Shown here: piece by piece, positions 34,331-57,487 of the stretch
Layout: each line of letters starts with the position of its first letter
Position numbering within the stretch: the first letter of the stretch is position 1
Assembly: GCA_963965975.1 (NCBI GenBank)
Contig: OZ014415.1
Coordinates: forward strand, 1,493,001-1,557,000
DNA length: 64,000 bases
Direction of reading: 5' to 3'
Source of the DNA: Xestospongia bergquistia
Taxonomy: Eukaryota > Porifera > Demospongiae > Haplosclerida > Petrosiidae
The notes under the pieces: model-generated
What the model was told of the DNA's origin: nothing
Databases searched by the model: none
What the model saw: the letters and a program-made list of their open reading frames with translations, nothing else
Program-made: the position numbers and the translations under genes

Positions 34331-34908
34331 ATGGCGAATAAACTGGTTTGGCTTGTTGCTGTTGTCTTTTTCGTGACTCTGATTGCTGACTCAAGCTCTA
34401 AAGATATCAAAACAAAAAGTGGACTCAAGAATCTTTACAATGAGAAGGTAGTCAAAGTAGAACGTGTTCAACGACCAATGAGCAGTTCTGGCAAAAAATT
34501 ACCTCTACCACATCAAGGAGCAAAGTCAGACAGAATTTACCATTTATTATAATAACTTTAATATCTAAAACTGTCACAGGTCCAGACTTTGGCAGGTCCA
34601 GTGAAACAGTTGTGACTGATGCTCACCATATGTCAAATAAATGGAAGGTAAGTCTATTAAAGTGAATATAATTTACTATCCTTTATTGATCACTCGTGTT
34701 TTTATTGGCTTATATTTTGTCCATTGTATAGGTTAAAGAAACAAGGAATGTTAATGGTCATACAGTGAGTGACTTTGTTAAAGCTGGTGGCAAGAAATAC
34801 AATGTAGTGACAGACAATTGTATACATGGAGCTAAAAGGATGACTAATTTGGGAAACAAGAAACCAAGTGCTAAACCAAGTCGCTTTGGTTTTGGAAGAA
34901 GAAAGTGA
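34331..34908 (+). CDS. SEP-1: signal peptide plus LRAT/NlpC-like domain, gene model incomplete
   Basis: Exon 1 starts MANKLVWLVAVVFFVTLIAD (signal peptide) and continues into KTKSGLKNLYNEKVV...LPHQG. A later exon ending at 34647 carries GPDFGRSSETVVTDAHHMSN, and the last exon 34732-34908 carries VNGHTVSDFVKAGG and [11 protein letters not shown]. The layout H...NC suggests the LRAT/NlpC-P60 cysteine-protease-like fold; this is inference, not a proven match. The join between exon 1 (stop at 34550-34552) and the middle exon (~34574-34647) is unclear: the segment corresponding to YLVHK of the second copy is missing, and no donor gives the right phase. Either a diverged splice site or a damaged gene. 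Ends with a basic tail (FGFGRRK). Confidence 0.55.
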
Positions 34909-35334
34909 ACGTTTTCATTTAAAAATTAAGACATTTAAAATCATTTGTTTGATCATTTTGTTGATGCCTCTTTCTACATTTAGTGAAACACCTTTTTATT
35001 TTATAACTTAGTACATTTACCTTCTATTAATACAAAGTTAATGTGATTCTGTTAACAATTAATGCCAAGTTAAGTCAAAATATTGTTTTTCTAGTTTCGT
35101 AAAATCAATATCTTTGACACATATTATTAGACAATAATTCCACATATTTCCATCTACTATACATAATATGGTATTAATTAAATACAGTCAATGATAATTA
35201 AATAGTTCTCAATTGATAGCAATATATATATATATATACATTAGCTGTGATGTAATAAACAATGAATATAATTATGTTGTTGTGTATATAAATAACCAGT
35301 TTCAGTAGACACTAGACCAAAAGAAAAGAAAGTG

Positions 35335-35736
35335 ATGGCATTTAAACTAGTTTGGGTTACACTTATAGTCTCTTTAGTGATTCTTATGATCAATAATTCC
35401 AGTTCTGAAGAAATACCAAGAAGAACTGAGCCCAGCAAGAAAGATCCTAAAAAGGAACAGAAGATGAGTGGTTCAGAGATTATTAATACTTATCATCCTT
35501 ATTACAAGACAAATCAGAAAGTAATATTATTTGTTTTGCTATTAATTTCAGTCCTGTAGTTTTGTACATGTGCTTGAATTTTTCTATTTGTTTCATAGGA
35601 TACTGGAAGAAATGACATAAAAGATCACTTTCATAATTTTGACAGACAACCAATAAAAGATATCACACTTGGAACCAAAAAGAAAATAAAGATTAAGAAG
35701 ACACAAAACAATAACAGTTGTTACTGCAAACAATAA
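35335..35736 (+). CDS. SEP-2: short secreted basic protein with CxC end (107 aa)
   Basis: Exon 1 35335-35520 (62 codons: MAFKLVWVTLIVSLVILM signal peptide, then a Lys/Arg/Glu-rich linker), 78-bp intron, exon 2 35599-35736 (45 aa). Phase 0. Exon 2 contains FDRQPIKD, shared with SEP-7, a KKK-rich stretch and ends CYCKQ. TATATAAAT lies about 50 bp before the ATG. I recognise no known family. The signal peptide predicts secretion; function unknown. Confidence 0.7.
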
Positions 35737-55878: not shown

Positions 55879-56413
55879 GTTAAGTAAATTGGTTTGGATT
55901 ACACTTTTGATCTGTTATGAGATTCAGCAAAGGAGTGAAATCATGAAGGTAATCATAAAGAAGAAATATGTTCTACAAGAGATGAACATCTTTCCGCATC
56001 AACCTCAATACACAACAATTTATGATACAGTAATCAGTTATTAATAATGAATTAGTAATTTTTGTTATTGAATGTTTTATTGTTTCTTAGAACATTGGAG
56101 AAAAAAGGCACGTCGCACTTGGTGATTTAATGGAACAAAATCTAATGTTAACAAAAGAAATAATGTATTACTCGATTGTACTTTTGTTGGTCGGATTTCT
56201 TAATTTGAAAGATATGATATATATAACTTTGTCAATTCTTCTGATATTACTACATTCTGCTGCACAACATTCTCAATAGACACACAGGAAAGGCTCAAAA
56301 TTATTAAAAAGAATCATGATGTATTATTGGCTTATACTTATGATACAATTTCTTCATCTTAATTTGGGGACTATCATTATTTTAATTTTATCAACTCTCC
56401 TAATACGTATTTA
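55879..56413 (+). pseudogene. SEP-10: SEP-4-like remnant without start codon, plus extra tail fragment
   Basis: Exon 1 remnant reads LLSKLVWITLLICYEIQQ with TTG where ATG is expected and part of the signal peptide deleted. The linker (KKKYVLQEMNIFPHQPQY) and donor remain. Exon 2 56091-56279 is open (NIGEKRHVALGDLMEQN ... AAQHSQ). Directly after it, 56281-56413 repeats the tail of a SEP-4 exon 2 (RKGSKLLKRIMMYYWLILMI ... stop), fused by a deletion or unequal exchange. Confidence 0.65.
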
Positions 56414-56866
56414 ATAATTTCTATTAATTAAAAACTTTTTTGCTCACTTGTCCATTCCCTTTTTTCAAAAACTGATTTAATTGACTGTCATCAATTCAAC
56501 ATTGATTATTATACTTGTTAAGAATAATTATTGAGATAAAGAACCAGGTCAACAAACAGAATATTTGAACACACCCTAGTTCATTAGAGTTGTCATATAA
56601 TAAATTGCAATGTCAGCCCATTCTTGATATCATATATCCCACATTTGTGTTACTGGGAGTATAGCGAGTTACAATGCTTAATCAACTGACACAGGAGGTG
56701 TACATGCATTAGGGAGTAAAAACATTATTAACCTATTGCATCATATATATGCATCATTACATCAGAATTCATTGATCAGCAATATGTATGGAACGACTAC
56801 TTAGTTTGTCGAGTGTCCAATTCATAATTTCTAGTATAGACACTAGACAAAGTCATATCAACAAAT

Positions 56867-57487
56867 ATGACAAGTAATTTTTTGCTTGTGGTCTGTTTGA
56901 TGATTCTATTTCTCAATGATGCTAATTCTAAAGAAATAAAAAGAAAAGAAAAGGCTGAAAAGAAGAACCAAGTTGTCTGTCAAAAACAGAAGAGCATTTT
57001 TCCAGTACATGCTCATTATCATCAATGCAAGTCAAAAGTAATTACAGTAATATTAATAATATTAATAATTATTAATAGTTTGTTATTTGATTTAATTGTT
57101 TCTTAGGTTAGTGGAAAAGAAATTACAAAAAAACATCTTGAAAACAATAAGGTACAACAAGGGAGACACAATGGAGCAAACAGGAAGAAAACAAGTATGA
57201 TACAAAGCAGAAATCAAAACAATTATCTTTATTGGTTAATGACAACACTTGAATTGGTTTGTGCAACAATGTTAGAAACTCTACAAACTGGAACATTACA
57301 TTTTATTACTTCAACATCATTTGATTTTATGATACGAAAACATATGATGTTATTAGTACAACGAGATATTGTGAGATTTAATATAATGTTATTACTAAAT
57401 CAATTTAACAATGCTTTTTTTCAGTGTTTGTTTGTTTGTATACTGGTGTGTTTGTTTCTTTACCTTTTCATTTCTTTTTTGATTTAA
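56867..57487 (+). CDS. SEP-9: SEP-8 paralogue with extended tail (183 aa)
   Basis: Exon 1 56867-57037 (MTSNFLLVVCLMILFLND signal peptide; KRKEKAEKKNQ linker; VCQKQ, HQC), 69-bp intron, exon 2 57107-57487 (126 aa). Exon 2: VSGKEITKKHLENNK, QSRNQNNYLYWLMTT, amphipathic region (RKHMMLLVQRDIVRF), then, past the point where SEP-8 ends, a very hydrophobic extension from a (GTTT)n tract (CLFVCILVCLFLYLFISFLI). The 5' flank (about 56520-56866) matches the 447-bp repeats. Confidence 0.65.

Follow-up and report, generated by a model that had tools for sequence, protein, structure and literature searches.

A tandem cluster of short genes with a common first exon and diverged tails in the sponge Xestospongia bergquistia

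How can a run of neighbouring genes begin with the same exon and end in second exons that look unrelated? This question is raised by a 64-kb stretch of DNA from the sponge Xestospongia bergquistia, positions 1,493,001-1,557,000 of contig OZ014415.1 (C5) in a 146-Mb genome of 21 contigs, which is referred to here as the window. Part of the window is occupied by a cluster of short genes, the SEP loci, in which the original prediction saw a constant secretion module joined to exchangeable second exons. The SEP labels used here are paired with those of that prediction by position and description, and the numbering may differ. The reading put forward below is that the SEP loci form a lineage-specific birth-and-death family of short cationic proteins of the secretory pathway, perhaps acting as defence-type effectors. 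It is held tentatively, with confidence that falls somewhat short of even.

The cluster and its two exons

Homologues of SEP exon 1 are found by tblastn (E<=0.01, low-complexity filter off, 64-kb window) at 15 places on the plus strand between 34.3 and 57.0 kb, which confirms the cluster first proposed; two short homologues lie on the minus strand. Six of the plus-strand places are intact two-exon loci, SEP2, SEP3, SEP4, SEP7, SEP8 and SEP9, with products of 107, 121, 135, 108, 171 and 183 residues, respectively. Their first exons lie on the plus strand at 35335-35520 (SEP2), 39674-39823 (SEP3), 44403-44585 (SEP4), 53767-53946 (SEP7), 51824-52006 (SEP8) and 56867-57037 (SEP9). All six introns are of the GT..AG type, 41-78 nucleotides (nt) in length, and in phase 0, as had been predicted. 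Exon 1 is related in all 15 pairs of intact genes (0 of 500 shuffles in each). Past the window, two further exon-1 remnants at 70.4 and 77.2 kb (extended coordinates) indicate that the cluster continues. In the whole genome, nine protein queries (exon 1 and exon 2 of SEP4, SEP7 and SEP8, the last exon of SEP1, a piece of SEP1b, and protein P0002) matched C5:1.527-1.564 Mb only, among the best candidates that these searches score, exon 2 of SEP2 and SEP3 standing outside the query set.

Exon 1 is predicted to encode a signal peptide followed by a basic linker. A home-made rule for n-, h- and c-regions and a (-3,-1) site, set after the sequences had been seen and used in place of SignalP, is passed in full by five of the six intact genes and by SEP1 exon 1 (first ~25 residues), compared with 3 of 115 open reading frames (ORFs) from outside the cluster; the proposed shared signal-peptide exon is upheld to this extent. 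SEP9 fails solely for want of a basic residue before the hydrophobic core. Plausible cleavage sites, with Ala or Ser at -3 and Ser or Cys at -1, are present in all six intact genes, and the net charge past the signal peptide is +5 to +19. Additionally, SEP4, SEP8 and SEP9 carry a hydrophobic tail segment of membrane length, which is absent from SEP2, SEP3 and SEP7.

The second exons, likewise on the plus strand, differ in appearance. They are Lys-rich with a Cys end in SEP2 (35599-35736) and SEP7 (53988-54134, ending in CCSCCCDC), Lys-rich with a less basic end in SEP3 (39873-40088), hydrophobic in the tail of SEP4 (44631-44855), and long-tailed in SEP8 (52064-52396) and SEP9 (57107-57487), the latter with a very hydrophobic C-terminus. 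The first ~25 codons (VNGKxxxKxxFxNxxxQQ) are common to SEP2, SEP4, SEP7, SEP8 and SEP9. When DNA is anchored at the splice acceptor and compared with 176 acceptor-like decoys, a null that includes the window's own repeats, the pairs SEP4-SEP8, SEP8-SEP7, SEP8-SEP2 and SEP2-SEP7 exceed every decoy, and no more than two decoys match or exceed the scores of SEP4-SEP7 and SEP4-SEP2. Anchored protein tests give p of 0.0005-0.003 for SEP4-SEP8, SEP4-SEP7, SEP7-SEP8, SEP2-SEP8 and SEP2-SEP7, and 0.0005 to 0.011 across these types with the exception of SEP2-SEP4, the weakest link (p=0.07). Whole second exons are strongly alike within types (SEP2-SEP7, z 13.5; SEP8-SEP9 also strong) and mostly weakly alike between them, apart from SEP7 with SEP8 and SEP9 (z 9-10). 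For SEP2-SEP4 the whole-exon score falls below its own shuffles, and an unanchored comparison alone would miss the relation. Profile comparisons, six in all, give a common register running from the exon start in the three from which SEP3 is absent (E=0.0006, 0.04 and 0.4), and no such register in the three that include it. As SEP2, SEP4, SEP7, SEP8 and SEP9 share an exon-2 start, the types of the original prediction are mainly different 3' ends of one exon, and for these five loci exchangeable unrelated exons are ruled out by the anchored DNA and protein tests. The start of SEP3 exon 2 is only marginally related to the others (decoy counts 1 to 18 of 176; anchored protein p 0.37-0.81). Taken whole, SEP3 exon 2 is similar to SEP7 exon 2 (2 of 500 shuffles), which does not make a convincing case for common descent.

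Relatives of the cluster occur in other DNA samples. A search of 5.8 billion proteins by exactly shared words, which finds mainly close relatives, returned matches solely in ENA contig proteins beyond the window's own P0008, P0009 and P0013. These comprise relatives of the SEP family (P0001, P0010-P0012 and P0014-P0017) and relatives of the SEP1 domain (P0002-P0007). Among the former, P0001 corresponds to SEP8 exon 1 and P0010 and P0014 to SEP9 exon 1. SEP4-type exon 2 is kept in P0011 (43/73 residues), hydrophobic tail included, and is related to P0012 (34/59), and SEP8-type exon 2 is followed for most of its length in P0017 (52/76). The tails of P0011 and P0017 thus indicate that the two main tail types exist outside this genome.

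Known families offer little further guidance. No SEP query matched a Pfam family above its curated cut-off, and matches below it (CRA, E=0.0037; MOV-10_N, E=0.04; GRP, E=0.0004; XK-related, E=0.007; and others) were set aside as probably reflecting signal-peptide or hydrophobic composition, as were two PHROGs matches, to a family of unknown function for P0011 (E=0.0011) and to another for P0006 (E=0.049). The SEP profile found no match in the PDB up to E=1, and no description of the family was found among the titles and abstract openings searched in the literature. A bacterial or viral source was rejected, as no relative of P0006 or SEP8, the two proteins queried, was present in GTDB contigs or IMG/VR.

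In the preferred reading, one family, forming a cluster of recent origin, would have expanded by tandem and segmental duplication and would be turning over by birth and death. Exon 1 would supply a signal peptide and basic linker, and exon 2 a common start with a tail that has become either Lys/Cys-rich or hydrophobic. From there the proteins would enter the secretory pathway, where cleavage of the signal peptide may release the Lys/Cys types as peptides of strong positive charge, and membranes would retain or take up the hydrophobic-tail types. Such proteins would most probably serve as fast-changing, membrane-active effectors of a defence type.

Constraint and decay

The main rival to a living birth-and-death family is a family in decay, that is, a relic that was once functional, has lost constraint on exon 2, and owes its open frames to recent duplication. 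This is judged unlikely, and several features of the cluster speak for it. Nine of the 15 plus-strand places are not intact, being broken, partial or SEP1-type, and the tandem copies and extensive decay that had been described are confirmed. Three tandem units of ~447 bp at 46450-47795 (period 447, 3.0 copies, 97% matches) contain broken copies of a SEP8/9-type exon 1 without exon 2. SEP4-type copies on the same strand have lost the frame of exon 1 (49001-49454, exon 2 open from 49227), carry stops in it (50770-51236, exon 2 open), lack the start codon and part of the signal peptide (55880-56408), or consist of exon 2 without a first exon (49776-49982). Exon 2 remains open at 49.2k, 49.8k and 51.0k where exon 1 is lost or broken.

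Substitution patterns point in the same direction for exon 2 and in the opposite direction for exon 1. In codon models of 25-75 codons and 3-6 sequences, two of the exon-2 sets including broken copies, omega is 0.90 for the exon-2 start, 0.62 for the Lys-rich set, and 0.96 and 1.05 for the hydrophobic-tail sets; none differs from 1, by p values that are approximate because kappa in the omega=1 models came from a short grid. Three of the four sets thus lie at 0.90-1.05, and SEP8 and SEP9 differ in exon 2 by 15, 7 and 14 changes at the successive codon positions. Equal substitution across the codon positions of exon 2, which by the original prediction's own standard would refute its proposal, is thus largely what is seen. 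Values near 1 indicate neither conserved function nor omega above 1 in those parts. By the same approximate test, exon 1 as a whole has an omega of 0.585 (p=0.019), which argues against a relic; each of its halves taken alone gives 0.77, which is not significant. Pairwise omega estimates agree with the codon model within wide limits.

The open frames themselves bear on both readings. Under neutral substitution, in a simulation that ignores indels and the choice of intact loci, an exon stays open with a probability of 0.02-0.26 (per exon and pair, four pairs), which makes survival of the frames by chance only moderately unlikely. Both exons are still free of stops in SEP4/SEP8, an older pair (0.05 and 0.02), and related copies are open in other DNA samples, two facts that count against a relic. 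As evidence of constraint, the open frames are suggestive but fall short of deciding the matter. In the 15 pairs formed by six loci, the 70.4 kb locus with its five aligned intron bases being omitted, the whole intron is more similar than either exon in 12 pairs, and in 11 once the splice ends are removed, as fast-changing exons would lead one to expect. More conserved introns mean that the exons change at least as fast, either through weak constraint or through diversification that offsets constraint.

Several points besides the broken copies and the exon-2 omega values weigh against the family as a functioning set of secreted effectors. The intron comparison covers 24-41 core nt per pair in non-independent pairs, some of them broken copies, and in SEP8/SEP9, both intact, the intron does not exceed both exons. 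The signal-peptide rule differs from SignalP. Nor are hydrophobic tails rare in this AT-rich DNA, in which random open segments match the SEP8 tail (last 34 residues) in 12% of cases, that of SEP4 in 2% and that of SEP9 in 0.08%. Furthermore, among the relatives outside this genome, the final part of the SEP4-type tail is absent from P0012, and the end of P0017 no longer follows SEP8.

SEP1, the upstream element and the open introns

A different mature part is found in SEP1 and its broken copy SEP1b, whose domain differs from the other SEPs and is common to the ENA proteins P0002-P0007. SEP1 exon 1 (34331-34523, plus strand, 3' end approximate) encodes the predicted signal peptide MANKLVW.. 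and then the N-terminal domain part common to P0002, P0004 and P0006. It is followed on the same strand by a remnant of a middle exon at 34579-34647 (GPDFGRSSETVVTDAHHMSNKWK), from which the ITTESGKQYLVHK segment of P0007 is missing, and by a last exon at 34732-34908 with the motif DNCIHGAKRM. P0002 matches the middle exon region at residues 4-49 and 63-87 and not between. In SEP1b (38629-39171, plus strand), exon 1 has an in-frame stop and the frame is lost after HQGVR. With ITTESGKQYLVHK absent from SEP1, and with stops and frame loss in SEP1b, both copies appear non-functional, barring unusual splicing.

The description of SEP1 as LRAT/NlpC-like found no support in Pfam or PDB. The HHG motif and later DNCIHGA motif of its ENA relatives could be read as the catalytic layout of LRAT/NlpC-P60 proteins. 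The SEP1 domain differs from those proteins in that the last exon of SEP1, the joined SEP1 piece, P0002, P0003, P0004 and P0006 matched no Pfam family at E-values as high as 10. As to the papain-like fold expected of such proteins, the best match of the domain in a PDB profile search, ficin at E=0.13, is not significant.

SEP1 also shares an upstream element with two of the intact genes. The 22-nt element ATATCTATGAATATGATTAGCT at 34241-34262 (plus strand) begins 90 nt before the SEP1 ATG, and its plus-strand copies each begin 69 nt before the ATG of SEP3 (39605-39626) and SEP7 (53698-53719), with 21 of 22 positions identical among the three. These are the three matches in the window at <=3 mismatches (0.03 expected) and the only ones in the 146-Mb genome at <=1 mismatch, where a reversed control gave none. 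From the common signal peptide and upstream element it follows that signal peptide and promoter are common property, and that the domain was either joined or lost elsewhere. Three more copies of SEP1 exon 1 are present on the same chromosome at 3.00, 3.04 and 3.58 Mb, 1.5-2 Mb away. Two have stops inside the match and the third is open for 52 residues, and SEP1-domain queries gave no match at these copies among the best candidates of the whole-genome search.

These observations bear on the possibility that a single signal-peptide exon has been combined with unrelated second exons as exchangeable modules. In favour of this are the SEP1/SEP1b domain behind the same signal peptide, its occurrence without a signal peptide in the predicted frames of P0002, P0004 and P0006, the upstream element common to SEP1, SEP3 and SEP7, and the doubtful ancestry of SEP3 exon 2. 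The related exon-2 starts of SEP2, SEP4, SEP7, SEP8 and SEP9 already refute it for these loci, and the three profile comparisons that run residue for residue from the exon start tell against it, with weak scores. As an account of the cluster it is improbable. The claim of different mature parts behind one secretion module holds for SEP1/SEP1b only, and does not extend to the Lys/Cys, hydrophobic-tail and long-tail types with their shared exon-2 start.

About equally improbable is that the products are membrane microproteins, anchored by an uncleaved N-terminal segment with the basic part and the SEP7 Cys cluster in the cytosol. Membrane topology rules would allow such an orientation given the dense positive charge past the hydrophobic stretch, and the SEP7 Cys cluster lies beside poly-Lys; against it stand the plausible cleavage sites of all six intact genes. 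Descent of the short SEPs from a SEP1-like gene by loss of its middle, with linker and exon 2 as degenerate ends, is highly improbable: the common upstream element and the linker alignments of SEP7-SEP1 (p=0.003) and SEP3-SEP1 (p=0.01) hint that the domain may have been lost from the other SEPs, but p exceeds 0.05 in 19 of the 28 linker comparisons (SEP7-SEP1b, p=0.058), linkers and exon 2 have no profile match to the SEP1 domain, and the SEP1 last exon, tried as the ancestor of exon 2, compares at chance level with exon-2 starts in 12 of 12 shuffle comparisons and by profile.

A further possibility concerns the introns of SEP4 (44586-44630), SEP8 (52007-52063) and SEP9 (57038-57106), which are multiples of three with a sole in-frame stop at the splice acceptor. 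As they are open in frame, retention would give a product of 75 or 79 residues whose end is hydrophobic. In P0011 and P0012 no stop interrupts the frame across the intron. The intron-encoded residues match these two proteins at 14/15 positions (the odd one being the stop) and match P0010 and P0014 at 22/22, compared with exon-1 matches of 44/60 (P0011), 43/60 (P0012), 52/57 (P0010) and 42/50 (P0014) and exon-2 matches of 43/73 (P0011) and 34/59 (P0012). That these introns serve as alternative coding tails, switched by intron retention, is nonetheless very doubtful from such comparisons, as SEP8 and P0001 agree at 13/19 in the intron and 54/61 in exon 1, the frame is interrupted in the introns of SEP2, SEP3 and SEP7, and splicing signals take up much of an intron as short as 45-69 nt.

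Duplication, neighbouring genes and comparable families

Five of seven SEP4-type copies (44.4, 49.0, 55.9, 70.4 and 77.2 kb) follow the 5' end or upstream region of a tRNA synthetase gene or a duplicate of it, the exceptions being those at 49.8 and 50.8 kb; segmental duplication therefore carried both. The gene is a class I tRNA synthetase of the E/Q type (PF00749; 43612-43767, minus strand), presumably EARS2, whose 5' part has been copied repeatedly. Its duplicates lie at 47870-48565, 54526-55471 and, past the window, 68.5-70.0 kb, each then followed by a SEP4-type copy.

Elsewhere in the window, positions 1-18000 hold a minus-strand tandem array of four long open frames of the same type, ending at 1711, 7972, 10893 and 15710. 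Of these, the frame at 6146-7972 was tested and gives B-box and NHL-repeat matches; a RING finger is present in another ORF, at 8479-8934. An exon of a TRM5/TYW2-type methyltransferase (PF02475; 18662-19399, minus strand) and one of an Erv1/Alr sulfhydryl oxidase (PF04777; 28365-28706) follow. At 45023-45428, inverted repeats of 29 nt, 97% complementary and 348 nt apart, look like the remnant of a short DNA transposon; the ORF beside them (45627-45923) has no Pfam match. Several copies of minus-strand Ig/Fn3-like genes (Pfam matches below cut-off) are present at 62000-64000 and at locus L017, continuing past the window. No RNA gene was found by Rfam at the gathering score, nor a tRNA by ARAGORN.

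Compared by description, the SEP cluster seems to be a new family whose mode of construction is familiar from venom and immune peptides. In Mytilus CRP-I, paralogues and pseudogenes are likewise clustered in a small chromosome region and the mature part is very diverse, with a fixed six-cysteine array, a likely knottin fold and positive selection (PMC10138031). The SEPs differ in having no fixed cysteine pattern, several hydrophobic tails and omega not above 1. Conotoxin superfamilies resemble the SEPs in introns that are conserved within a superfamily. Their introns exceed 3 kb, and the sites under positive selection are found chiefly in the mature exon (PMC3862624), unlike the SEPs with their introns of 41-78 nt and omega not above 1. 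Clustered paralogues with a conserved signal region and a divergent mature part, the pattern of both systems, are found among the SEPs. A CRP-I peptide that was tested proved not notably antimicrobial (PMC10138031), and the likeness is therefore no proof of a defence role for the SEPs; a part in allorecognition, which the original prediction also named, is likewise conjectural.

If translated and secreted, the SEPs would be a very basic family of small proteins found in no library searched. The locus also carries a warning for the reading of such clusters, in that exons with no visible likeness may prove to be a single exon whose 3' end has diverged. Because intact, decayed and freshly duplicated copies adjoin one another, the history of birth and death in this family may be read from one 40-kb region across individuals.

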